Source of the DNA: Acholeplasma sp. OttesenSCG-928-E16
GTDB taxonomy: Bacteria > Bacillota_I > Bacilli_A > Acholeplasmatales > Acholeplasmataceae
Assembly: GCA_030266845.1 (NCBI GenBank)
Contig: JAJDIT010000001.1
Span: 1-64,000, forward strand
Direction of reading: 5' to 3'
DNA: 64,000 nt
Part shown: positions 15 to 47,670 of the stretch, piece by piece
Numbering within the stretch: the first letter of the stretch is position 1
How the letters are laid out: each line of letters starts with the position of its first letter
Notes under the pieces: model-generated
The model's input: the letters and a program-made list of their open reading frames with translations, nothing else
Databases searched by the model: none
Told to the model about the DNA's origin: nothing
Translations under genes and position numbers: made by a program

Positions 15-1496
15 ATGGAAAAGCAAAAGAAAACCCCATTCTACTCAAAATTAAAAGAATATTCAAGTGAAGACATCGTCCCTTTTGATGTCCCGGGGCA
101 TAAAAGAGGCATTTTAGAAACCGATTTAAAATTAGATGTTGGGCCAGATATATATAAATTAGATAGCAATGCTCCAAGAGGATTAGATAACCTAAATCAT
201 CCCAAGGGAGTCATTAAGGAATCAGAAAAGTTAGCCGCCCTAGCTTTTCAAGCTGATGAGGCATTTTTCTTAACTGGTGGGACAACGAGCGGGATTTTAG
301 CGATGATGATGCTTGCCGTCAAGGCAAAACAGAAGATAATTATGCCTAGAAATGTCCACAAGTCTATTATTAATGGATTAATACTAAGTGGAGGAATACC
401 GGTTTTCATTAAACCGGATATGGATAATGACTTAGGAATTGCAAATGGCGTTAGTTTTGAAAAATACAAGAATGCAATAGATGATAATGAAGATGCGGTG
501 GCAATATTAGTTATTAATCCGACTTATTTTGGTGTAGTTAATGACTTAGATAAGATTATTTCTTATGCACATGAGAAAGAAATGTTAGTATTAGCTGATG
601 AAGCACACGGCGGTAATCTTTATTTTTCTAGTGAACTACCAAAAGGAGCAATTCATTCAGGAGCGGATATAAGTGCCGTGTCGATGCATAAGAGCTTAGG
701 TTCACTTACTCAAAGTTCAATTTTACTAACGAAAGGGAATAAAGTGGATTTGAGAAAGTTGAGATCTACTTTAAACATAGTTCAATCAACATCACCGAGT
801 CAACTATTGATTGCATCTATCGATGTTGCTAGAAAAACAATGTTTTTTGAAGGACATAAATTAGACGGTGTCGTTCATATTGTAGATGAAACAATAAATA
901 AGATAAATGAGATTCCAGGATTAAAAGCTGTTGGTAAGGATTACTTCATAAAAAAGGGAGCTTTTGATTATGATCCCACTAGATTAATAATAGATTTCTC
1001 AAGACTGGGAATGACCGGATTTGAGGCGTACAGAGTACTAGCGGATGACTATAAGATTCAGATGGAATTGGCAGAATCTAAGATTGTATTGGCGGTAATG
1101 TCTATTGGAACAACAAAAGAACATTTAGAGAAATTACTATCCGCGCTTAAAGATTTATCAAATAAGAGATATAATAGTAGTATAAAAACAGAGAGTAAAG
1201 TGATATTCGTTTATCCAGAGAGTTATACTAGACCAAGAGAAGCATATCACGCTCCATACAAAATAATTAAAATTGAAGATTCCCTTAATGAAATTGCTGC
1301 TGGGTCAATTATGGCTTATCCGCCCGGTATACCGTTAGTTATACCTGGCGAAATAATAACAAGAGAAATCATCGATGCACTAATTGAATACAAAAATAAT
1401 GATCAAACGATTCTTTCAGATACCGAAGAAGGATACATAAAGGTTATTGATAAGGATGAATGGATAAAATGGGAGGGGTTTAACGATGAAATTTAA
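15..1496 (+). CDS. speA: Arginine decarboxylase (Orn/Lys/Arg decarboxylase family, PLP)
   Basis: The 493-residue protein is a fold-type I PLP decarboxylase of the Bacillus SpeA/YaaO type, expected to convert arginine to agmatine in the cytosol. The N-terminus has the family motif FDVPGHKRG (residues 24-32). LTGGTTSG (86-93) fits the PLP-phosphate region, DEAHGG (195-200) carries the PLP-contacting Asp and His, and SMHK ends in the Schiff-base lysine K226. The length is normal. The start is ATG, 7 nt after an AGGA-like ribosome-binding site. The gene overlaps the agmatinase gene by 11 bp. That neighbour makes arginine the likely substrate rather than lysine, because agmatinase uses the product of arginine decarboxylation. 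The substrate itself cannot be read from the sequence. Confidence 0.9.
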   Translation: MEKQKKTPFYSKLKEYSSEDIVPFDVPGHKRGILETDLKLDVGPDIYKLDSNAPRGLDNLNHPKGVIKESEKLAALAFQADEAFFLTGGTTSGILAMMMLAVKAKQKIIMPRNVHKSIINGLILSGGIPVFIKPDMDNDLGIANGVSFEKYKNAIDDNEDAVAILVINPTYFGVVNDLDKIISYAHEKEMLVLADEAHGGNLYFSSELPKGAIHSGADISAVSMHKSLGSLTQSSILLTKGNKVDLRKLRSTLNIVQSTSPSQLLIASIDVARKTMFFEGHKLDGVVHIVDETINKINEIPGLKAVGKDYFIKKGAFDYDPTRLIIDFSRLGMTGFEAYRVLADDYKIQMELAESKIVLAVMSIGTTKEHLEKLLSALKDLSNKRYNSSIKTESKVIFVYPESYTRPREAYHAPYKIIKIEDSLNEIAAGSIMAYPPGIPLVIPGEIITREIIDALIEYKNNDQTILSDTEEGYIKVIDKDEWIKWEGFNDEI

Positions 1497-2349
1497 TAAA
1501 GTAGACTTATCTTTTCAAAGTTGTGATGCTACCTATGATGAGGCTGATGTTGTAATATTTAGTGTACCTATGGATGCCACAACATCATTTAGACCTGGAA
1601 CTAGATTTGCAGGCAATGCCATAAGGGTAGATTCAGTAGGAATTGAATGGTATTCCCCATATCGAAATATGGACTTAAAAGATTATAAAACCTGTGATAT
1701 AGGAGATCTAAATATTCCGGTTGGCGATGTGGAAGAGGCATTAAATATTGTCTATGAAACGACTAAACAAATCATTAATGATGGAAAAAAGGCTATTATG
1801 GTTGGAGGCGAACACTTAGTTTCTTATTCAACGATAAAGGCTTATCATGAAAAATATAGTGACCTTTTTGTCATTCATTTTGATGCTCATACTGATTTAC
1901 GGGATGAATTTTTAGGGAGAAAATTATCTCATGCTACTTTTATGAAACACGCACATGAATTTCTTGGCGATGGCAAAATATTTCAATTTGGAATAAGAAG
2001 CGGCGATAAAAAAGAATTCGAGTGGGCACAAGAAGGCCATATATTTCAACAAAAATTCAATTTTGATTACCTAGATGAAACTATTGAGAAGTTAAAAGAT
2101 AAACCTGTTTATATTACGATTGATCTTGATGTGTTAGACCCAAGTGTTTTTCCGGGAACTGGGACACCAGAACCAGGAGGAATGCAGTATAAAGATCTAT
2201 TAAAGGCTTTTGATTCTTTTGAAAAATTAAACAACATTGTTGGATGTGATATTGTTGAGTTGGCACCAATGCTTGATGCTAGCGGGGCATCAACAATGGT
2301 TGCAGTAAAATCATTAAGGGAGTTAGTGTTGTTATTACATAGAAAATGA
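1486..2349 (+). CDS. speB: Agmatinase (ureohydrolase family)
   Basis: The 287-residue ureohydrolase is predicted to split agmatine into putrescine and urea with a binuclear Mn centre. All metal-ligand blocks are visible: GGEH (first His), FDAHTDLRD (Asp-x-His-x-Asp) and TIDLDVLDP (the two late Asp). The length matches family members. ATG follows GGGAGG by about 9 nt inside the last codons of speA, so the two genes are translationally linked. The TGA stop at 2347-2349 overlaps the next ATG. Together with speA it makes a two-step arginine-to-putrescine route; no spermidine synthase is seen in the window. Confidence 0.92.
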   Translation: MKFNKVDLSFQSCDATYDEADVVIFSVPMDATTSFRPGTRFAGNAIRVDSVGIEWYSPYRNMDLKDYKTCDIGDLNIPVGDVEEALNIVYETTKQIINDGKKAIMVGGEHLVSYSTIKAYHEKYSDLFVIHFDAHTDLRDEFLGRKLSHATFMKHAHEFLGDGKIFQFGIRSGDKKEFEWAQEGHIFQQKFNFDYLDETIEKLKDKPVYITIDLDVLDPSVFPGTGTPEPGGMQYKDLLKAFDSFEKLNNIVGCDIVELAPMLDASGASTMVAVKSLRELVLLLHRK

Positions 2350-3251
2350 AATGTTTATTGATTTATAATCCTGTAAGTGGGAAGGGAAAATTTAAAGATG
2401 AAGTTCCTTTGGTTAGGGGATTAGTTGAAAAAAAGGGACACACCCTAGAAGTATTTGAAACATCTGAGGATGAGAAAATATGCGATGAGGTAACAGAGTT
2501 AGCATCCCAATATGATGTTTTTTTAGTTGCTGGAGGAGACGGAACTCTTAATTTTGTCATCAACTGTATTATGCAAGTAGATATTAATAAGAGGCCTAAA
2601 GTGCTTCTTATCCCGAGAGGAACCTGCAATGATGTTGCCCATATTTTTGGAATCAATAAAGAACTAAGTAATAACATTGATCTTTTAGATTTAGAACCCA
2701 TTAAAACAGATATTGGACAGATAAATGAAAAATATTTTTGTTATTCAACGGCATGTGGAGCTTTTTCGGAAACCACATATCAAGTAAAAAGAAAAGATGT
2801 TAATAAGTATGGATATTTAGCATATATCAAAGAAGGAATCAAAAAAACTGGAAAAAATAAGAAAATTCCAATTAAAGTAAAACATGATATTGGAGAAGTA
2901 TCTGGTGATTTTTGTCTCGCAATTATCTTAAATAGTAAAAAAGTAGCTGGATTTACCTTAAGATTTTATTCAGAAGCCAAAATGAATGATGGACTTTTAG
3001 AAATGCGACTTTTAAAGGCGTTTGGTTTTTTTAATATGTTAAAAATAATCTTTTTCTTCTTATTTGCGGGGACAAGAGGGATAAGAGACAAACACCTAAT
3101 ATCCAGAAATTTCGAGGTTGAGATGCCTAGTAATGTTGGGTGGAACATTGATGGCGAAAAAGGTCCATCTGGAAATGTCTTTATTAAAACTCACAAGGAA
3201 GCAATCGAGTTTTTCGTATCTGAAAGAAGCAAAAAAAAGTATTATCTCTAA
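2346..3251 (+). CDS. Diacylglycerol/sphingosine kinase-like lipid kinase (YegS/DgkB family)
   Basis: The 301-residue protein has the DAGK catalytic fold. It opens with IYNPVSGKGK, has the nucleotide-binding GGDGTLN motif at about residues 61-67, and has PRGTCNDVA, the counterpart of the family's GTxNDfAR motif. Such enzymes phosphorylate diacylglycerol or related lipids at the inner membrane face. The ATG overlaps the speB stop by 4 nt (ATGA), so it is co-transcribed with the polyamine genes, although no functional link is known. The closest family assignment is BmrU/YerQ-like, and the exact lipid substrate cannot be told from sequence. Confidence 0.82.
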   Translation: MKCLLIYNPVSGKGKFKDEVPLVRGLVEKKGHTLEVFETSEDEKICDEVTELASQYDVFLVAGGDGTLNFVINCIMQVDINKRPKVLLIPRGTCNDVAHIFGINKELSNNIDLLDLEPIKTDIGQINEKYFCYSTACGAFSETTYQVKRKDVNKYGYLAYIKEGIKKTGKNKKIPIKVKHDIGEVSGDFCLAIILNSKKVAGFTLRFYSEAKMNDGLLEMRLLKAFGFFNMLKIIFFFLFAGTRGIRDKHLISRNFEVEMPSNVGWNIDGEKGPSGNVFIKTHKEAIEFFVSERSKKKYYL

Positions 3252-3321
3252 AGAATAATTTTTAAAAAATATAAATAAAAAATTATGAAACAATTTTCAT
3301 TTTTTTCTTTCTACAATTTCC

Positions 3322-3350
3322 TTGATAAAGTGGAACAAATGAAATATAAT
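3322..3350 (+). promoter_or_regulatory. Predicted sigma-A promoter of nrdDG
   Basis: TTGATA (3322-3327) and TATAAT (3345-3350) are separated by exactly 17 bp. The expected start point is near 3357, which leaves a leader of about 130 nt before nrdD. Confidence 0.75.
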
Positions 3351-3356
3351 GATTAT

Positions 3357-3487
3357 ACCCGAACGGGGAAGGGGAACATAGTATAAATATGGGATAAGTA
3401 AATTAAAAAGTGTTTTTTCACATCTTTTTTCTTTCCAATAAGCATACTATGTATGCTTTTTATATTATAAAAGATAGGGGTATTGGT
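3357..3487 (+). promoter_or_regulatory. nrdD leader with inverted repeats
   Basis: The untranslated leader contains a compact repeat CCCGAACGGG (3358-3367), a small GTG-T6-CAC hairpin followed by a T-rich run, and a perfect palindrome GCATAC-TAT-GTATGC at 3442-3456 about 32 nt before the start codon. The palindrome does not fit the NrdR-box consensus (ACACTATATATTGTGT-like). Whether it is a protein site, an RNA hairpin or chance is unknown. Confidence 0.4.
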
Positions 3488-5776
3488 ATGGTAAAAAAGA
3501 TTAGAAAAAGAGATGGTAGATTAGTTCAGTTTAATCAAGAAAAGATAGCTAACGCAATCTCAAAGGCTTTAACAGCAAGCGGAAACAGTCTTGATAAATT
3601 AGATGACATTACTAGTGATGTAGTTGATGTTATTAATAAAGAATATCAAACGAAGGCTCCGACTGTTGAGTCTATTCAAGATATCGTCGAAAGAGAACTT
3701 ATGCGATATGGTTTAACAGATGCTGCAAAACAGTATATTTTATATCGCGAAGAGCGAAATAGAGTAAGAGATAAAGACACCAGACTAATGAAAACCTTTC
3801 ATGATATCGCTTTTTCTAAGAGTGAAGCAAGTGACCTAAAAAGAGAAAACGCCAATATTAATGGTGACACTCCGATGGGGGCAATGCTTAAATATGGAAG
3901 TGAAGGGGCAAAAGAGTTTAATAAAATATTCGTTTTAAACCCAAAACATGCAGAAGCTCACGAAAAAGGATTGATTCATATTCATGACCTTGATTTTTTA
4001 ACATTAACTATGACATGTTGCCAAATTGACCTAACAAAACTATTTACAGGAGGATTTCAAACTGGTCACGGCTCAGTAAGAGAACCCCAAGATATTAAAA
4101 CTTATGCTGCACTCGCATGTATAGCTATTCAGTCCAATCAAAATGATCAACACGGAGGACAAGGAGTTCCTAAATTTGATTATGATATGGCGGTTGGAGT
4201 AAGAAAAACATATGTTAGAAAGTATCGAGAAAATCTGACAAAATTAGCGGATATTTATGATATAAATATTGATTCAAGAGCTGTTTTAGATGATATTAAG
4301 GCTAAATATGGTGTTTCGCCAAAGCTAGATAATAATGAAATTGACAAGTACATAGGGTCATACTTACCAGAAGATAAAAAAGAAAAAGTTCTTTCCTTAT
4401 GCGCGAAATATGCTAAAAATGAAACAATAAGAGATACTTATCAAGCGATGGAATCACTTATTCACAATTTAAATACGATGCACTCAAGAGCTGGTGCACA
4501 AGTTCCTTTTAGTTCTTTAAACTATGGAACCGATACTTCTCCGGAAGGAAGACTTGTCATGGAACAAATAATGAAAGCGACGATTGCCGGGATGGGTGAA
4601 AATGAAACACCAATCTTTCCAATTCAAATATTCAAAGTAAAAGAAGGAGTGAATTATAACCCTGAAGATCCAAACTACGATTTATTTAAATTAGCTATTA
4701 AAACATCTGCTAAAAGACTATTTCCTAACTTCTCATTTATTGATGCTCCATTTAATCTTCAATATTATGATAAGAATAATGCTGATACCGAAATTGCCTA
4801 TATGGGATGTAGAACGAGGGTTATTGGAAATACCTTTGATCCTAGTAATGAAATAGTAACTGGTCGCGGGAATATTAGTTTTACAAGTATAAACTTACCG
4901 AGATTAGCAATAACAAACAACAATATGGATGCCTTCTTTACAGCTTTAGACAAAACTGTTGATCTCGTAATTGAGCAGTTATTAGAAAGATTTGAAATTC
5001 AAAGGAATCTTCATGTTTATAATTTCCCATTCTTATTTGGGCAAGGAGTATGGATTGATTCAGATAAACTAAATAGAAATGATAAAATTGATGAAGTTGC
5101 AAAACATGGATCAATGGCTGTTGGGTTTATAGGGCTAGCGGAATCTTTAAAGGTATTACTAGGAGCACACCACGGAGAGTCTAAAGAAGCTCAAGAATTA
5201 GGGTTAGAGATTATTTCATTCATGCGAAAGAAAGTTGATGATGCCTCTAAAAAATATAATTTAAATTTCAGCTTGGTCGCTACGCCTGCCGAAGGATTAT
5301 CAGGAAGATTTGTCAGAATAGATAGAAAAGAATTCGGTAATATAGAAGGAGTTACTAATCACGAATACTATACAAACTCTTTTCATATTCCTGTTTATTA
5401 CGAAACTAACGCTTATCATAAAATTGATGTTGAAGCACCATATCATGAACTTACAAATGGTGGACACATCAGCTATGTGGAATTAGATGGAGATGCTTCT
5501 AAGAATGAAGAAGCCTTTGAAACGGTTATTAGATATATGCATGATAAGGGAGTTGGATATGGTTCGATTAATCATGCAGTAGATCGCGACCCAGAATGTG
5601 GATTTATTGGAATCATCGATGATGAATGTCCTAAATGCGGCAGAAAAGAATCGAAGAATAGTCCTTTTGAAAGAATTAGAAGGATTACTGGATATCTAGT
5701 TGGGTCATTAGAAAGATTTAATAATGCCAAAAGAAAGGAAGTCGAAGAAAGAGTTAAGCATGTCAAGAAAAATTAG
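3488..5776 (+). CDS. nrdD: Anaerobic ribonucleoside-triphosphate reductase
   Basis: This class III ribonucleotide reductase makes dNTPs without oxygen, using a glycyl radical. The start chosen is the ATG at 3488, which gives 762 residues; a further 26 in-frame codons upstream lack family similarity. Residues 1-90 form an ATP-cone (VKKIRKRDGRLVQF). The C-terminus has CPKCG (C714, C717) plus an upstream ECG of the zinc site, and RRITGYLVGS, where G735 is the radical glycine, followed by RFNN. The first zinc pair shows one Cys (DPECG) rather than CxxC. The gene overlaps nrdG by 17 bp. It matches the strictly or facultatively anaerobic metabolism suggested by nifJ. Confidence 0.95.
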   Translation: MVKKIRKRDGRLVQFNQEKIANAISKALTASGNSLDKLDDITSDVVDVINKEYQTKAPTVESIQDIVERELMRYGLTDAAKQYILYREERNRVRDKDTRLMKTFHDIAFSKSEASDLKRENANINGDTPMGAMLKYGSEGAKEFNKIFVLNPKHAEAHEKGLIHIHDLDFLTLTMTCCQIDLTKLFTGGFQTGHGSVREPQDIKTYAALACIAIQSNQNDQHGGQGVPKFDYDMAVGVRKTYVRKYRENLTKLADIYDINIDSRAVLDDIKAKYGVSPKLDNNEIDKYIGSYLPEDKKEKVLSLCAKYAKNETIRDTYQAMESLIHNLNTMHSRAGAQVPFSSLNYGTDTSPEGRLVMEQIMKATIAGMGENETPIFPIQIFKVKEGVNYNPEDPNYDLFKLAIKTSAKRLFPNFSFIDAPFNLQYYDKNNADTEIAYMGCRTRVIGNTFDPSNEIVTGRGNISFTSINLPRLAITNNNMDAFFTALDKTVDLVIEQLLERFEIQRNLHVYNFPFLFGQGVWIDSDKLNRNDKIDEVAKHGSMAVGFIGLAESLKVLLGAHHGESKEAQELGLEIISFMRKKVDDASKKYNLNFSLVATPAEGLSGRFVRIDRKEFGNIEGVTNHEYYTNSFHIPVYYETNAYHKIDVEAPYHELTNGGHISYVELDGDASKNEEAFETVIRYMHDKGVGYGSINHAVDRDPECGFIGIIDDECPKCGRKESKNSPFERIRRITGYLVGSLERFNNAKRKEVEERVKHVKKN

Positions 5777-40319: not shown

Positions 40320-41561
40320 ATGGCAACGTTAGAATTAAAGGACATTAATAAGATTTATCCTAATGGTGTTCAAGCGGTTTTTGATTTTAATCTAAGAATT
40401 AAAGACAAAGAATTTATCGTTTTTGTTGGACCTTCTGGGTGTGGTAAATCAACAACTCTTAGAATGATCGCTGGATTAGAAGAAATAACAAGTGGTGAAT
40501 TATATATCGATGATGAGTTAGTTAATGATAAAGCTCCAAAAGATAGAAACATCGCGATGGTTTTCCAAAGCTATGCGTTATATCCTCATATGACGGTATA
40601 TGATAATATGGCATTTGGTTTAAAACTAAGAAAAATGCCAAAACTAGAAATTGAAAAGAAAGTTCAAGAAGCTGCTGAGATTCTTGGGTTAGTACCATAT
40701 TTAAAAAGAAAACCAAAAGCGTTGTCTGGGGGGCAAAGACAAAGGGTGGCTCTAGGTAGAGCAATAGTAAGAGATGCAAAAGTATTCTTAATGGACGAAC
40801 CATTATCAAACTTAGATGCTAAGCTACGTGTTCAAATGCGTGGGGAATTAATTAAATTACATAATAGAATCGAAACAACTACTATTTATGTAACCCATGA
40901 CCAAATTGAAGCGATGACAATGGCTTCAAGAATCGTTGTAATGAAAGACGGATACATTCAACAAGTAGGTGCTCCAAAGGCTATTTATGATAACCCAGTT
41001 AATATGTTCGTTGGTGGATTCATCGGAACTCCTCCTATGAACTTTATTGAAGGTAGAGTATCAGAAGATGGTTGGTTTAGAGCAGGAACTCATAAACTAA
41101 GAGTACCAGCTGCTAAATTAGCTATTATTAAACATAATAAATTCTTTGATGCTGATATCGTTTTAGGTATTAGACCAGAAGACATTCATGATGATGAAGT
41201 GGTTAAAGAAGCTTATCCAGAAGCTGCATTAGATATCGTGGTTGATGTTGCCGAATTATTAGGAGCTGAAACTAATATCTATACGACAATTAATGAAAAT
41301 TCTATTTGTGCAAGCGTAAACGCTAGAGCCGATATTAGAATGGGCGATACTATTAAGTTAGCATTAGATATGAACAAATGTCATTTCTTTGATCCACATA
41401 GTGAAAGAAGATTAACAGAAGATGCAGAAATCAATCCGCATAAAGAAGAATATGTTTCTTTAAAACAAGATTCAGTTGCTCCAGATGCGATTATTCCTGA
41501 AGAAGCTCCAAAGAAAAAAGCTAAAAAAGTTAAAGAAGAAGCAGAAGAAAAGAAAGAATAA
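40320..41561 (+). CDS. msmX: Sugar ABC transporter ATPase (MsmX/UgpC/MalK family)
   Basis: The 413-residue ATPase has Walker A GPSGCGKST, MVFQSYALYPHMTV, signature LSGGQRQRV, Walker B FLMDEPLSNLDAKLR, the switch His, and a C-terminal regulatory TOBE/OB domain (from about 240). A Lys/Glu-rich tail (KKKAKKVKEEAEEKKE) extends past the usual end. No permease or binding protein is adjacent. That is typical of MsmX-type ATPases, which energise several carbohydrate importers encoded elsewhere. It ends at a strong terminator. Confidence 0.88.
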   Translation: MATLELKDINKIYPNGVQAVFDFNLRIKDKEFIVFVGPSGCGKSTTLRMIAGLEEITSGELYIDDELVNDKAPKDRNIAMVFQSYALYPHMTVYDNMAFGLKLRKMPKLEIEKKVQEAAEILGLVPYLKRKPKALSGGQRQRVALGRAIVRDAKVFLMDEPLSNLDAKLRVQMRGELIKLHNRIETTTIYVTHDQIEAMTMASRIVVMKDGYIQQVGAPKAIYDNPVNMFVGGFIGTPPMNFIEGRVSEDGWFRAGTHKLRVPAAKLAIIKHNKFFDADIVLGIRPEDIHDDEVVKEAYPEAALDIVVDVAELLGAETNIYTTINENSICASVNARADIRMGDTIKLALDMNKCHFFDPHSERRLTEDAEINPHKEEYVSLKQDSVAPDAIIPEEAPKKKAKKVKEEAEEKKE

Positions 41562-41564
41562 ATT

Positions 41565-41588
41565 AAAGACCCACTCGGGTCTTTTTTT
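41565..41588 (+). terminator. Terminator after the MsmX-like gene
   Basis: AAAGACCC (41565-41572) pairs with GGGTCTTT (41577-41584) around ACTC and is followed by more T. Confidence 0.9.
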
Positions 41589-41601
41589 ATGGCTATATAA
41601 A

Positions 41602-42021
41602 ATGATTAATTACATTAAGAATAACAATGAAGGAATTTCTATTTTTTCATCTAATGAAGAAAAAATAGTAAAGGGCACAGTATTAGGTTTTATTAAGAAA
41701 AAGTGTATTAATAATCTTTTTTCATATGAAGGATATGTAAAAGCGTGTAAAAAGGTATTAAAGATTTCATCATTAGTGCCGGTAGTCATATCAAAAAGCG
41801 AAGTATATTTTCCTATATCAAGGGTGAAGGATTATGAAAATATTTTTATAAACTATTTAGCAATTAGTAGTTTATCTATCAATAAAGAACAAACTATTAT
41901 TACTTTTTTTGATGGACAAACTATAAAAATAGATATATTAAAAGGGAAAATAGAAAGAATAATCAATAATATTGAATCAATTTTAAAATATAAAACGTTT
42001 CCAGAATCAAAATGTAGATAA
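41602..42021 (+). CDS. ComK-like protein
   Basis: The 139-residue protein resembles the competence regulator ComK over most of its length. SYEGYVKACKKVLKI matches the SSY-GR-K-T-E...I block, VPVVISKSEVYFPIS matches the P-I---S-I-FFPT block, and TIITFFDGQTIKID matches the V-F-NG--M-L strand. ComK usually has about 190 residues, and the C-terminal part is missing here. The ATG lies only 14 nt after the T run of a terminator and has no visible Shine-Dalgarno site, so expression may be low or conditional. If real, it would bind DNA and activate uptake genes. The identification rests on pattern recall and is moderate. Confidence 0.55.
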   Translation: MINYIKNNNEGISIFSSNEEKIVKGTVLGFIKKKCINNLFSYEGYVKACKKVLKISSLVPVVISKSEVYFPISRVKDYENIFINYLAISSLSINKEQTIITFFDGQTIKIDILKGKIERIINNIESILKYKTFPESKCR

Positions 42022-42043
42022 TTATTTACTTAAATGTTATAAT
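42015..42043 (+). promoter_or_regulatory. Predicted promoter of the pgk cluster
   Basis: TAGATA (42015-42020) and TATAAT (42038-42043) are spaced by 17 bp. The -10 is extended (TGTTATAAT). The promoter overlaps the end of the ComK-like gene. Confidence 0.65.
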
Positions 42044-42081: not shown

Positions 42082-43308
42082 ATGGCCAAAAAAACAATTA
42101 AAGACATTGATTTAAAGGGAAAGAAAGTGTTAATTAGAGTGGATTTTAATGTACCACTAGACAAAGCGACAGGTGCAATTACTGATGATACGAGAATAGT
42201 TGCTGCATTACCTACTATTAAATATGCGATCGAACAAGGCGGAAAAGTTATTTTATTTTCACACTTAGGTAGAGTTAAAGAAGAAGCAGATAAAGCAAAA
42301 AACAGTTTAAAATTAGTTGCTAAAAGATTAGAAGAACTTTTAAATAAACCAGTTGTTTTTATTCCTGAAACAAGAGGAAAAGTATTAGAAGACGCTATTA
42401 GTAATTTAAAAGAATCAGATGTTTTAATGTTTGAAAACACAAGATTTGAGGACTTAGATGGTAAGAAAGAATCTAAAAATGATCCTGAACTTGGTAAGTA
42501 TTGGGCATCCTTAGGTGATGTATTTGTAAATGATGCGTTTGGAACTGCTCATAGAGCACATGCATCTAATGCAGGAATAGCTGCTAATATAGAAGATACA
42601 GTAGCTGGGTTCTTATTAGAAAAAGAAATTAATTTTATTGGAGGAACTCTAGAAAATCCAAATAGACCATTTGTTGCGATATTAGGAGGAGCTAAAGTAT
42701 CTGATAAGATAGAAGTTATTAAAAATTTATTAAATGTTGCTGATAAAGTATTAATTGGTGGAGGAATGGCATTTACCTTCTTAAAAGCGCAAGGTAAGGA
42801 AATTGGAACCTCTCTTTTAGAAAGCGATAAAGTAGATTTAGCAAAAGAATTATTAGCACTAGGAAAAGATAAAATCGTTTTAGGATATGATTGCTTAACA
42901 GCGAGAGAATTTGCTGATGTTAAGGGAGAAGTCCATGATTTTGATTCTATTCCAGAAGATGAAATGGGATTAGACATTGGCCCTAAGACTATTGCGGAGT
43001 TCTTAAAATATATAAGCAATGCTAAAACTATCGTATGGAACGGACCACTTGGAGTATCAGAGTTTAGCAATTTTGAAAGAGGAACCAAAGAAATTGCTTT
43101 AGCAATCGCTAAAAACAAAGAAGCAATAAGTATCATAGGTGGTGGGGACTCAGCAGCGGCAATCGCTAAGTTTGGACTAGAAAATGAGGTTACTCACGTT
43201 TCAACCGGTGGTGGAGCTTCACTAGAATATCTAGAAGGTAAAGTTTTACCAGGAGTTGCTATTATCGATGAAAAATGTTGTTGTGGATGCGGCAACCATA
43301 AACACTAA
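42082..43308 (+). CDS. pgk: Phosphoglycerate kinase with Cys/His-rich tail
   Basis: This glycolytic enzyme makes ATP from 1,3-bisphosphoglycerate. It has [10 protein letters not shown] near the N-terminus, [32 protein letters not shown] and GGGDSAAAI, followed by [16 protein letters not shown]. The family sequence ends normally at LPGVAIIDE. About 11 extra residues, [11 protein letters not shown], then form a dense Cys/His tail like a metal-binding patch, which ordinary PGKs lack. The stop codon overlaps the start of the XRE/cupin gene by 1 nt, so the frame is real and operonic. GGAGG precedes the ATG. Confidence 0.95.
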
Positions 43309-43847
43309 TGGATATTGGTAAACAAATAAGAGAACTTAGGTTAGGCAATGGTCTAACCCAAGAGGAACTAGCCAATAGACTAGAGTTAACTAAAGGCTAT
43401 ATCTCTCAATTAGAAAACAATTTAACATCACCTTCAATGCAAACCTTATTCTCGATTTTAGAGGTTTTAGGAACTGATGTTCATGAGTTTTTCAGTAAAG
43501 AAGAAACAAGTGCTGTTGTCTATAAAAAGGAAGATTTCTATATTAAAGAAAACGAAGAATTGAAACATAACATCAGTTGGATTGTCCCAAATGCTCAAAA
43601 ATATGAGATGGAACCTATTTTAATAGAAATAGAGCCACATGGTCAGTCAGAAATTGATGATCCGCACCCAGGAGAGGAATTTGGGTATGTTTTAGAAGGG
43701 CAAATAACTCTTGTTTATAATAAAAAAAGATATATAATAAAGAAAGGTGAGACTTTTTATTATTTGACTAATAAAGAGCATTACTTATTAAATACTACCA
43801 ACCAAGTGGCAAAGGTATTATGGATAAGTACCCCACCAATGTTTTAG
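43308..43847 (+). CDS. XRE-family regulator with cupin domain
   Basis: The 179-residue regulator has an N-terminal XRE helix-turn-helix (IGKQIRELRLGNGLTQEEL through GYISQLEN) and a C-terminal cupin (from about residue 110: HPGEEFGYVLEGQITL with metal-type His/Glu). Relatives (PuuR/MfrR-like) often control polyamine or amino-acid uptake by sensing a small ligand in the cupin. It lies between pgk and the HPr-like gene, which suggests control of carbon flow instead. The target and ligand are not known. Confidence 0.85.
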   Translation: MDIGKQIRELRLGNGLTQEELANRLELTKGYISQLENNLTSPSMQTLFSILEVLGTDVHEFFSKEETSAVVYKKEDFYIKENEELKHNISWIVPNAQKYEMEPILIEIEPHGQSEIDDPHPGEEFGYVLEGQITLVYNKKRYIIKKGETFYYLTNKEHYLLNTTNQVAKVLWISTPPMF

Positions 43848-43859
43848 GAGGAGAAAAAA

Positions 43860-44105
43860 ATGGAAAAAGAAATTACAATTAAGAGCACAACTGGTTTACA
43901 CGCTAGCTTAGCGGCAAAAGTTGTCCAAACAGCTTCCAAATATGCTGTTGATATTAGATTAATCTATCATGATAAAGTGGTTGATGTTAAATCTATCTTA
44001 GGTCTAATGAGTTTAGCTATTCCACAAGGCGAAAATGTCAAAATAGTAGCTAAGGGCGATCATGCTGCAGAAGCAATAAAAGATATCGCATCAGTTCTTG
44101 GATAA
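43860..44105 (+). CDS. HPr-like phosphocarrier with altered active-site loop
   Basis: The 81-residue protein has the HPr fold. The phosphorylatable His is kept (TGLHA, H14), and the regulatory serine motif VDVKSILGLMSL is kept (S45, equivalent to Ser46). However, the highly conserved ARPA after His reads ASLA, so the Arg17 and Pro18 equivalents are Ser16 and Leu17. Arg17 contacts the phosphoryl group in ordinary HPr, so PTS phosphotransfer may be weak while HPrK/CcpA-type signalling through the serine could persist. AGGAGG precedes the ATG. It lies between a regulator and tpiA. Confidence 0.88.
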   Translation: MEKEITIKSTTGLHASLAAKVVQTASKYAVDIRLIYHDKVVDVKSILGLMSLAIPQGENVKIVAKGDHAAEAIKDIASVLG

Positions 44106-44109
44106 AGAT

Positions 44110-44877
44110 ATGGCTAGCAAAAAAAGAGTTCCAGTAATTGCTGGAAATTGGAAGATGTTTAAAAATCGTGATGAAGCTTTAGCTTTTGTTTTTGCTGTTA
44201 ATGATAATATGCCAAAAAGAAAAGAAGTTGAAACGGTTATTTGTGCACCAGCGATTCATTTATCGGCTTTAGTCAAACGACAAGGCGATAATTTGAGAAT
44301 CGGTGCACAAAATATGCACTTTAAAGATTCTGGTGCTTTCACAGGTGAAATTTCTCCTTTAATGTTAGTTGATGCTGGAGTATCTTATTGTGTAATTGGA
44401 CATAGTGAAAGAAGACAATATTTTAATGAAACTGATGAGACGGTTAATTTAAAAGTTAAAGCAGCGATCGCTCATGATATTATTCCAATTCTTTGTGTTG
44501 GTGAGTCATTATCAATTAGAGAAAAAGGGACAACTAATCGTTTCGTTAAAAAACAAATACTAAAAGCTTATGAGGGAATTGAACTTGAAGATGCATTAAA
44601 GGTTATTGTTGCTTATGAACCTATTTGGGCAATTGGAACCGGAGTAACTGCTACCAAAGAACAAGCTAATGAAACAATTAAAGGAATTAGAAGAGTATTA
44701 GCTAAACTATATCAAAGAGTGAACGCTAATAAGATGAGAATCCTTTATGGGGGCTCAGTAAACACAAATAACATTAAGGAATTACTAGGCGAATCTGACA
44801 TCGATGGCGCTTTAATAGGGGGAGCTTCGCTTAAATCGGATGATTTCTTAAAATTAGTGGATGCGGCAAGAAAATAA
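44110..44877 (+). CDS. tpiA: Triosephosphate isomerase
   Basis: The 255-residue TIM-barrel isomerase interconverts DHAP and glyceraldehyde-3-phosphate. It has the N-terminal AGNWKM motif, GHSERR with catalytic H98, AYEPIWAIGTG with catalytic E170, and the phosphate-binding LYGGSVN. The ATG at 44110 fits the family start (MASKKRVPVIAGNWKM); a TTG at 44098 is less likely. It follows the HPr-like gene by 4 bp. Together with pgk it is part of a glycolytic transcript. Confidence 0.96.
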   Translation: MASKKRVPVIAGNWKMFKNRDEALAFVFAVNDNMPKRKEVETVICAPAIHLSALVKRQGDNLRIGAQNMHFKDSGAFTGEISPLMLVDAGVSYCVIGHSERRQYFNETDETVNLKVKAAIAHDIIPILCVGESLSIREKGTTNRFVKKQILKAYEGIELEDALKVIVAYEPIWAIGTGVTATKEQANETIKGIRRVLAKLYQRVNANKMRILYGGSVNTNNIKELLGESDIDGALIGGASLKSDDFLKLVDAARK

Positions 44878-45076: not shown

Positions 45077-45865
45077 ATGGAACATAATATAATGACATTT
45101 AACATGAGAATTGATCAAACTAGCGATGGAATGAATTCATGGCCATATCGTCTATCATCAGTCTCACAATTTTTAAAAGAAACAAAACCTTTGATAATTG
45201 GTGCTCAAGAAGTATCAAAAGCGATGAGGGATGGGGTATTAACACTAACGGGTGATTATTATTCATTTGGGATGCCAAGAACAACCGAAGGAGAAGGAAC
45301 ACCAATTTTATATAATCATAGAGTACTATATTTAATTGATGGAGGGACATTTTGGTTATCAGAAACACCGACAGTTCCAGATTCAATAAGCTTTGATGCG
45401 GCATATCATCGAATTTGTACATACGCTACTTTTTGTTTTCGGGTTGATCGGACAAAAAGATTTAGAGTGTACAATACCCATTTAGATAATAAATCAGAAT
45501 TAGCGAGAATGAAGGGTATTGAAATTATTTTTGAACACATTAAAAAAAGAAACGATAAGGAAGAACATTTACCGACATTTTTAATGGGAGATTTAAATGC
45601 TGAGCATGGCTCAGATGTTTTAAAATACATAGAGTCAAGAAAAGATGATCCTAGTTTACCTACTAATAACGCTTTTTCATTGATGAAAAAAGAAGATGTT
45701 GGGGCTACTTTTCATGGGTACGAAGGGAAAACAAAAGGGGATCCTCTTGATTTTATCTTTTATACAGATGATCTAAAAGTATCAAATCCGGTTATTTTTA
45801 GAGAAAAAATAAATGATCGCTATATTAGCGACCATTATCCGGTATATGTAAAGGTTGAATTTTAG
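45077..45865 (+). CDS. Endonuclease/exonuclease/phosphatase (EEP) family protein
   Basis: The 262-residue EEP-fold hydrolase opens with NIMTFNMRID and has GAQEV (metal Glu), YNTHLDN, LMGDLNAEHGS and the C-terminal SDHYPV catalytic Asp-His. There is no signal peptide. Members cleave phosphodiesters or phosphate esters in DNA, inositol phosphates or sphingolipids, and the substrate cannot be told. AAGGAGAG precedes the ATG, and an extended -10 (TGATATAAT, 45043-45051) lies upstream. Its stop overlaps that of the convergent gene by 4 bp with no terminator between them. Confidence 0.88.
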   Translation: MEHNIMTFNMRIDQTSDGMNSWPYRLSSVSQFLKETKPLIIGAQEVSKAMRDGVLTLTGDYYSFGMPRTTEGEGTPILYNHRVLYLIDGGTFWLSETPTVPDSISFDAAYHRICTYATFCFRVDRTKRFRVYNTHLDNKSELARMKGIEIIFEHIKKRNDKEEHLPTFLMGDLNAEHGSDVLKYIESRKDDPSLPTNNAFSLMKKEDVGATFHGYEGKTKGDPLDFIFYTDDLKVSNPVIFREKINDRYISDHYPVYVKVEF

Positions 45866-47520
45866 TTTTTTAGTTTAAGTAGATAATCTAATAAACATTT
45901 TGCTGCTTGTAATGGACCATCTGATTCCATATTAGGTAAAGCAAGCTTTGTATATAGTATTCCAATAGGGATACTATTTTCTTTTAATAATGAAAAATAA
46001 GTATCTATGAGTTTCCTTGTTTTTAGTTCTCTTTGCATTGGACCAAAAGGATTAGCGAAAAAAGAAGTAGTAATACCAGTTTCAGAAGTAGTACCTTTAG
46101 ATAATCTTTTTCCCTTTATAAAGTATTCTTTAGCATCATCAAGAGATTCAAAGAATTTTACACCCTTATTATTATCTTCATAATTATTAGCGTATAATAC
46201 CATATCAATATGATGAAATTTATTAATAAAATCATAATCTGAGACCGGTAGAACAATACGAGCATTCTTTTTATCGGGATTAATAAATACACCACGATCA
46301 ATTTCCTTATAGACATAACCTTCTTCTAAATCATCTAATCTAACGAATGCTCCTATTTCAGTACCGGTCGCAAAGACGCTTTCATTAACCTTAAAGAAAG
46401 TGCCCATATCATCAAAGATTGTTGACATCTCTTTAATATGGTTAGATCCCAAGCTTCTTAAGGCTTCTAGTGATTCAGATTTCCCTGCTCCACTATCACC
46501 GATAATTACAATATTCTTAGTTGAGTTATCTTCCATTAATAAACTTACCATTGCCCCGTGAATTGGTAAACAATCCATATCGATGGTTTTTAGATTATAT
46601 AATGTTAATAACATTTTTTTCATATAACCAAAATAATCATTTTTATCTAAATAACTAATAATACCGATATAAGTATCATTAGACTCATCATGAAAAATCA
46701 TGCCATCATGTTTATTATCTTCCACTCCAAAGATACAAATGATATCTGGTTTTTGATTCAAGTATTTAGTTTTAGTAATTGGCTCAAAAAGATTAGATAG
46801 CGATATCAAATGATGAAGATAATCTACGTGACAGTAAACATATGCTTTAGATCTTCCAACATAAATAGGATAACAATAAAAGAGGTTTGGATCTATTATT
46901 ATATCGTCTATAAAATTTGTTTTAGTTTCGTTAAAATAATCAACTCTAGTATTACTTTTAGTTTGGATAAGAAATGGCGGTCTAATTAAAGTTCGATCAA
47001 CAAAAGGAATACCTTTAGTAAATGGGTAGTTAAGAGAATTAGAGTAATCGTTATGGTTAATTGATATTAAAGCATTTAACCCCGCAGGTAACTGACGGTA
47101 TACTGAAAACCTTTTTTGCATTAACTTTTCTTGAACGGTTCGATACAAATCAAGAATCAAACTAGTAAATGATTCAGAAGTACTAATCATATCTTTATCA
47201 TCAGATAAAACACCATATCTTTGAATCTTCCTCCAGTAGTCATAAAACGCCTCACCAAACTCGATTAAAATATTAGGATAGTGCGTTAATAAGCGATTAT
47301 AGGTAATTGGATGCTCACCCTCAGTAAGGATTAAATAAGCTCCAATAATTTCTAAGGGCATAAAATAATCTTCTAGGTTTCCAAAGTTTTTTTTCTTTTT
47401 ATAGTACTTAATAAATCTTTCTAAAACAAGAAAAAAAGTCTCGCTTGTTAGTATTTCTTTTTTAGAATTACAGCTAAAGTCATATAATACGATGTTGTTT
47501 TTATTTATTCGATAACTCAT
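45862..47520 (-). CDS. HPrK/PEPCK-like P-loop protein, function unknown
   Basis: The 552-residue protein has a P-loop IIGDSGAGKSE (from about residue 338) that resembles HPr kinase (GDSGVGKSE) more than the usual PEPCK loop (GLSGTGKT). It also has an aspartate pair in STIFDDMGTFF and a late NARIVLP. The N-terminal 330 residues, rich in aromatic residues, match nothing that I know. The start is taken at ATG 47520, because the GTG nine bases upstream is itself part of the AAGGTGG ribosome-binding site. It could be a kinase or phosphorylase of the HPrK/PEPCK clan. The reaction is unknown. Confidence 0.7.
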   Translation of the reverse strand: MSYRINKNNIVLYDFSCNSKKEILTSETFFLVLERFIKYYKKKKNFGNLEDYFMPLEIIGAYLILTEGEHPITYNRLLTHYPNILIEFGEAFYDYWRKIQRYGVLSDDKDMISTSESFTSLILDLYRTVQEKLMQKRFSVYRQLPAGLNALISINHNDYSNSLNYPFTKGIPFVDRTLIRPPFLIQTKSNTRVDYFNETKTNFIDDIIIDPNLFYCYPIYVGRSKAYVYCHVDYLHHLISLSNLFEPITKTKYLNQKPDIICIFGVEDNKHDGMIFHDESNDTYIGIISYLDKNDYFGYMKKMLLTLYNLKTIDMDCLPIHGAMVSLLMEDNSTKNIVIIGDSGAGKSESLEALRSLGSNHIKEMSTIFDDMGTFFKVNESVFATGTEIGAFVRLDDLEEGYVYKEIDRGVFINPDKKNARIVLPVSDYDFINKFHHIDMVLYANNYEDNNKGVKFFESLDDAKEYFIKGKRLSKGTTSETGITTSFFANPFGPMQRELKTRKLIDTYFSLLKENSIPIGILYTKLALPNMESDGPLQAAKCLLDYLLKLKN

Positions 47521-47670
47521 ATAATCCACCTTATTTTAAAATTATACCATAATATATAAATATTTTATCAACTCACTATAAAATCAAACGATGATTAATT
47601 TTAGTATTTTTATCTCTTTTGTGTTAGTATAAGAATATAGTATTTTATTAGCGAAAGGATCAATTTATAA

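Follow-up and report, generated by a model that had tools for sequence, protein, structure and literature searches.

A ComK-family gene behind a conserved terminator in Acholeplasmatales: a candidate read-through cistron

The ComK family is already known, and in Bacillus subtilis comK has its own autoregulated promoter, the feedback of which makes Bacillus competence bistable. Operons with an internal terminator between co-directional genes are also known, in which the second gene is reached by read-through. In the uptake machinery ComG has a role in DNA reaching through the wall, which is bypassed in protoplasts, and DprA has a role together with RecA. For the comK gene of B. coagulans, the available text of one study places a K-box in the promoter region (PMC3536758). 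In the literature searched there was no paper joining Acholeplasma and comK. The order Acholeplasmatales is described as being without a peptidoglycan wall, with wall genes noted in some Anaeroplasmataceae, in the accessible portion of a further source (PMC10868615). The DNA analysed here is a stretch of 64,000 nucleotides, the whole of which is called the window and which we infer to belong to the Acholeplasmatales, wall-less Mollicutes. It carries a comK gene.

The comK frame and its neighbours

The window contains a frame of 139 codons with an ATG at 41602 and a stop at 42021, confirming the 139-residue frame with ComK-like blocks of the preliminary description. A Pfam profile search gave a match to ComK (PF06338) over residues 12-122 with an E-value of 7.4e-13 and 49 bits, the curated cut-off being 22.3; the remaining three Pfam rows, taken to E 10, and a single NCBIfam row all fell below their cut-offs. 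PF06338 matches 40 of the 41 aligned comK members at E 0.01 or better, and the core residues are conserved in the order-wide alignment. Judged by its sequence, 41602-42021 encodes a genuine ComK family protein. The product is probably a transcription factor, with DNA binding and the activation of competence genes as putative functions. The features of the cluster are as follows.

40320-41561, plus strand: ugpC/msmK/malK-type sugar ABC transporter ATPase (Pfam ABC_tran, OB_MalK, TOBE_2)
41565-41588, plus strand: intrinsic terminator, stem at 41565-41584 and T run to 41588 (sequence; same place in relatives)
41602-42021, plus strand: comK, 139 aa, ATG start (PF06338, order-wide alignment, AlphaFold2 model)
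42015-42043, plus strand: promoter-like site before pgk, whose second hexamer, TATAAT, follows a TG (promoter scan, pgk upstream regions)
42082-43308, plus strand: pgk, phosphoglycerate kinase (PF00162)
43308-43847, plus strand: helix-turn-helix/cupin regulator of the same cluster (HTH_3 and Cupin_2)
43860-44105, plus strand: HPr of the sugar phosphotransferase system (PTS-HPr)
44098-44877, plus strand: tpiA, triosephosphate isomerase, given as the longest frame with a TTG start, so that the true start may be later (TIM)

The order of the cluster, as assigned by Pfam, is ugpC - terminator - comK - pgk - HTH/cupin - HPr - tpiA. When the window is set beside 40 relatives (41 loci), ugpC is found directly upstream of comK in 34 and pgk follows comK in 39, the two exceptions being a contig end (L117) and a locus for which the frame picker chose another frame (L095). 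Beyond the order, 19 class-wide loci were compared, from a set of 20 in which L260 gave no comK frame and L263, counted among the 19, gave the wrong one. Here pgk follows comK in 13 and ugpC lies directly before it in 8, so that this arrangement of genes predates the Acholeplasmatales as an order. Near the HPr gene, a 555-aa frame on the minus strand (45862-47529) contains the nucleotide-binding motif GDSGAGKSE, and from this motif we take it to be reminiscent of HPr kinase.

By profile search a ComK relative is encoded in 41 of 61 genomes, that of the window included, and an order-wide ComK profile matches 74 of 160 genomes of the order. The listed genomes of one genus (g8), mostly below 0.9 Mb, gave no match to the order-wide profile, and most genomes of family f3 are without ComK. 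Most of the named relatives are Acholeplasmataceae MAGs; the others include Acholeplasma granularum, Peloplasma aerotolerans and one MAG that bears the label Phytoplasma, and it is by these relatives that we assign the window to the order. Viral contigs gave 209 pattern matches, of which none codes for a relative. Sampling across the class gave PF06338 matches in 167 of 395 genomes and in 102 of 193 genera, which tempers the earlier view of this protein as a ComK outside the classical Bacilli.

The terminator and the transcription of comK

The hairpin at 41565-41584 reads AAAGACCC-ACTC-GGGTCTTT and is followed by a T stretch through 41588. Between the stem and the start of comK there are 17 nt; counted from the last G/C pair the distance is 20 nt, and from the end of the T run 13 nt, which makes the previously given 14 nt about right. 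This arrangement is common in the order. A terminator is present no more than 110 nt upstream of comK in 35 of the 41 loci, with the last G/C of the stem 13-24 nt before the start in 34 and a gap of 3-14 nt from the T run to the ATG likewise in 34. The layout is missing where comK directly follows sufB (L113 and L127) and in L130, which has a different upstream gene and no terminator. In a set of 30 further loci the terminator is found 15-26 nt before comK in 24, all of them behind ugpC. Nine of the 30 had already been inspected (seven with and two without a terminator) and 17 of the 21 new ones have it; one genome contributes two copies (L278 and L298), and L299 and L300, which are cut by contig ends, and the weak matches G028 and G110 were left out. 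The six further loci without a close terminator are five from Acholeplasma sensu stricto, with TATAAT-like sequence upstream, and one distant match. All five sampled families include loci with a close terminator, f1, f2, f4 and f5 among the 41 loci and f3 through two of the further loci. Outside the order the picture by eye is mixed, with a close terminator in L250, perhaps one in L268 and none in L264; in L256, L266 and L267 it is farther off and a Shine-Dalgarno-like site is visible. Among 34 ugpC-linked loci 32 distinct hairpin sequences are found, which indicates that it is the element that is kept and not its sequence.

The spacing was compared with that of other genes in three controls. 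The first gave 34 of 38 terminator-bearing comK pairs and 0 of 32 other pairs, a comparison that favours comK as its starts were set by alignment and the other starts by the longest frame. In the second, which covered 464 kb of other stretches, 12 of 47 terminator-bearing pairs, including three ambiguous cases, had a start no more than 30 nt away under a rule (longest frame, any start in 25 codons) that missed the comK of the window itself; a Shine-Dalgarno-like site was seen in six of the nine short-gap cases viewed in full. Both are superseded by a control in which all genes were treated alike, taking the longest frame and any start in 60 codons. Under this rule the short spacing is found in 32 of 33 terminator-bearing pairs for comK (37 pairs in all), in 1 of 44 for the other genes of the comK loci (238 pairs) and in 8 of 43 in other stretches (268 pairs). 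Other genes too can have a start close behind a terminator; what sets comK apart is that the layout is conserved. The spacing between c6 and ugpC is likewise conserved, and this, with the short gaps seen elsewhere, means that compact vertical inheritance explains part of the layout.

Scanning for promoters gave little upstream of comK. In the 290 nt before ugpC-linked comK genes, which take in the 3' end of ugpC, a promoter-like site was found at 1 of 32 loci, not above shuffled sequence (shuffle mean 3.1), and an extended -10 at 3 of 32 (mean 4.0); in the gap between terminator and comK both counts were 0 of 32. Upstream of pgk, promoter sites were found in 32 of 39 cases (mean 3.2) and an extended -10 in 36 of 39 (mean 3.2). 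For ugpC the corresponding numbers were 5 of 34 with two hexamers (mean 2.6) and 19 of 34 with an extended -10 (mean 2.5), and where comK lies apart from ugpC they were 2 of 9 and 1 of 9 (mean 0.9 for each). Since the scan is weak for these last two sets, a sigma-70-like scan misses real promoters. Thus comK has a terminator on one side and the pgk promoter on the other, with no promoter signal of its own.

Signals for translation are also sparse. There is no match to a Shine-Dalgarno site before the comK start of the window, as had been noticed, and such a site is absent in 22 of the 34 terminator-proximal cases among the 41 loci and in 21 of 33 ugpC-linked loci with a close terminator. It is present before pgk in 38 of 39 cases and before ugpC in 31 of 34. 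Loci without the site have a shorter gap between stem and start (P 0.0005), and the distance from the ugpC stop to the comK start is no different whether the site is there or not (P 0.47). By eye, TATAAT-like and Shine-Dalgarno-like sequences are seen where comK lies off ugpC in Acholeplasma sensu stricto and in L122, where it is farther from the terminator.

We consider it fairly likely that the locus encodes a genuine ComK-family transcription factor from a gene without a promoter of its own, which is read as a read-through cistron. The observation as a whole holds beyond the window, with the family in 41 of 61 genomes and the terminator-then-start layout in 34 of 41 loci, and the suggestion that comK would need read-through of the terminator is backed by the order-wide layout, the promoter scan and the same-rule control. 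comK would then be transcribed solely by RNA polymerase that has run past the terminator of ugpC, and its level would be a small fraction of that of the sugar-transport ATPase transcript. The read-through could be stochastic or regulated, and might be raised by interference of a ribosome or a factor at the hairpin. In the read-through RNA the hairpin would place the stop codon of ugpC near the start of comK, and re-initiation without a Shine-Dalgarno site would be possible, although the stop-to-start distances lend no support to re-initiation. The hairpin energies, considered as a sign of leakiness, do not differ from those of other terminators (P 0.11), which speaks against the read-through reading.

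A possible variant, to which we give less weight, would make the hairpin a regulated attenuator in its own right, which a ribosome, a protein or a ligand opens, and not just a leaky ugpC terminator. The stop codon of ugpC adjoins the stem, and in L091, L094 and L290-L292 lies within the hairpin, so translating ribosomes could open it; stops near terminators are however common in these genomes. There are also two loci in which hairpin and ugpC are separated. In L129 a different upstream gene is followed by TATAAT and then by a terminator 18 nt before comK, and in L120 a weaker hairpin (two G-C pairs) with a T run, identified by eye, follows ugpC and a second terminator stands 18 nt before comK. 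This suggests that the hairpin serves comK and does not merely end ugpC, but there are just these two separated cases.

It would seem unlikely that comK has its own promoter overlapping the terminator and missed by the sigma-70 scan, whether dependent on an alternative sigma factor or an activator, or leaderless. The TATAAT-like sequences seen by eye in relatives with comK away from ugpC would fit such a promoter, as would a single case in the control stretches (L139) in which an extended -10 and then a start come immediately after a terminator, and the scan does miss many promoters, as its low yield for ugpC indicates. Against this, the 3-14 nt between T run and ATG are too few for a -10 and a start site with a leader, and neither a promoter nor an extended -10 was found in any of the 32 gaps.

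That comK is an expression-dead leftover held in place by gene order is very improbable, for while most competence genes are gone and many terminator-proximal copies have no Shine-Dalgarno site, the best match is free of stops in 40 of 41 genomes (a single TAA in G003, with none by the order-wide profile), the core residues are conserved and the predicted fold is confident. With the order-wide profile a TGA falls within the ComK match in five genomes of genus g12 and in G028; in G034, one of the g12 genomes, the frame ends before the TGA, at 133 aa, and the profile match probably runs past the stop.

Competence genes and possible targets

The description of the protein as a competence regulator is half supported by the rest of the genome. 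In the assembly, which is 86% complete, ComEC and a ComEA-like frame (below its cut-off) are found, and T2SSE, DprA, MecA and a ComF over cut-off are not, so that the late competence genes looked for are present in part. ComEC scores 41.7 bits (cut-off 23) and is matched in 48 of the 61 genomes, in 47 of them over the cut-off, this genome included. Directly before comEC on contig C9, which also carries recA, lies the ComEA-like frame of 166 aa, with 50.4 bits against a cut-off of 53.1. Matches to the ComEA-type HHH model at E 0.001 or better were obtained in 57 of 61 genomes, 18 over the cut-off, with longer HHH proteins of other kinds included in the tally. As TIGR00426 also matches frames of about 690-1130 aa, ComEA was accepted only as a short frame adjoining ComEC; the accepted frames have about 160-190 residues, with one of 259. 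Two genomes (G005 and G024) have no PF03772 match, yet by eye a ComEC-like frame of more than 500 aa follows comEA. RecA is matched in 56 of 61 genomes and DprA in three, not including this one; 11 of 14 named control genomes match DprA. ComF was found over the cut-off in 0 of 61 genomes, and matches below it were not counted, being mostly confined to the C-terminal part of the model. T2SSE (ComGA/PilB) is over the cut-off in 14 of 61 genomes and not in this one; matches below the cut-off were again not counted. PilC-like frames are visible by eye beside PilB in some genomes (L064, L068 and L061, about 1000-4000), and such PilB/PilC-like pairs raise the possibility of a type IV pilus in wall-less bacteria. 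MecA (PF05389), the adaptor by which the level of ComK is controlled, matched 0 of 61 genomes, and the control match in B. subtilis was obtained. We do not regard MecA as defining for the family, since the ComK of B. coagulans also has no MecA site, according to the available text of the study cited above (PMC3536758).

K-boxes gave no indication of the targets, as paired AAAA-N5-TTTT motifs are not enriched before the tested genes in relatives. Pairs were found at 1 of 17 comEA loci (shuffle mean 0.43), 1 of 41 comK (1.6), 1 of 39 pgk (1.0), 0 of 32 ugpC (1.0) and 0 of 35 HTH/cupin loci (0). The comEA set consists of those 17 of 25 loci with a usable frame; the locus of this genome (L201) is not included, and one of the 17 (G060) is without a ComK match. 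In the same partially available source, the majority of late gene promoters in B. coagulans likewise have no K-box (PMC3536758).

ComK would most likely activate what remains of the uptake machinery, comEA-comEC, and may in this way drive the import of DNA, perhaps for scavenging. In a cell without a wall, DNA may reach the membrane without the help of a pseudopilus. Growth on extracellular DNA by means of secreted nucleases is described for the wall-less relative Izemoplasma, in a paper whose accessible portion does not mention competence (PMC8397711). L-forms of one actinomycete take up DNA even without ComEA and ComEC, as stated in the available part of another (PMC9500057), an argument against ComEC being required at all. 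We put DNA scavenging forward here as a hypothesis. With DprA, ComF and mostly the pilus ATPase lost and ComK, ComEA and ComEC kept, the question of DNA for genes or for food becomes testable.

Predicted fold and comparison with known systems

The AlphaFold2 model of the window ComK has a pLDDT of 90.6 and a pTM of 0.83, and that of the A. granularum protein a pLDDT of 93.6 and a pTM of 0.87; the two are not independent, as their alignments share members. For both models the six best PDB entries are all LytTR DNA-binding domains, with Z scores of 7.8-6.7 and 6.9-5.0 and the rest at 3.9 or lower, where a Z below 8 can mean merely a common arrangement. The best Foldseek E-values, 7e-3 and 0.13, are weak alone. 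When the profiles of three ComK alignments were compared with that of 29 LytTR domains (from 30 loci, L313 being left out for an in-frame stop), the scores were 22-30.5 and the probabilities 9-56%. The controls stayed lower. Sixteen other families, run in one direction against the pooled alignment of ComK, scored 10.3-16.6, reversed LytTR scored 11.5-15.8, and none of 30 column shuffles exceeded 14.0. LytTR (PF04397) gave no row in the Pfam scan to E 10, in which filters drop most matches above 0.1, and a solved ComK structure was not found by sequence. The fold of ComK likely resembles that of LytTR DNA-binding domains, as far as the models indicate, and it is by such a fold that ComK would probably bind DNA. 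Such a relationship, if true, would provide a structural model for ComK.

Taken together, these points allow a broader reading that we hold tentatively and regard as rather doubtful in its entirety. In it, the ComK of Acholeplasmatales would be a switch gated by read-through and tied to sugar status by the cluster ugpC-comK-pgk-HPr-tpiA. It would drive a pared-down importer of ComEA and ComEC, for which a pseudopilus is superfluous in the absence of a wall and which serves for feeding on DNA and not for transformation because DprA is gone; ComK would be a divergent LytTR domain, so that Bacillus ComK and Streptococcus ComE share one DNA-binding fold. The accessible text of the literature searched did not report the order-wide terminator-comK arrangement, the comK-pgk cluster or the LytTR likeness. 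Of the papers naming both ComK and LytTR, those consulted list the two families side by side, and none links them in its title or abstract. The preliminary interpretation overall is borne out in the ComK identity and the need for read-through, and less so in the competence role and in placing the protein outside the classical Bacilli. If comK is made only by overrun of the terminator, transcription noise or a read-through signal would replace the promoter feedback of Bacillus competence. Cultivable relatives that differ in the arrangement, such as P. aerotolerans (L172), which has it, and A. granularum (L179), which does not, make the read-through model testable.

The protein is similar in length to ComK of B. 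subtilis and its relatives and belongs to the same Pfam family over residues 12-122. Its predicted fold is like the LytTR domains of ComE from Streptococcus pneumoniae (4cbv), of AgrA (3bs1) and of 3d6w; in contrast to ComE and AgrA, ComK stands alone, without a receiver domain. Unlike comK of B. subtilis and B. coagulans, the gene has no promoter that was found, a conserved terminator in front of it and, of the late genes, mainly ComEA and ComEC to accompany it. The locus is closest in layout to operons with internal terminators or attenuators, which likewise have a terminator between co-directional genes and read-through to the second. Here, by comparison, it is a transcription factor gene that stands behind the gene of an ABC ATPase, and the arrangement is kept across the order.
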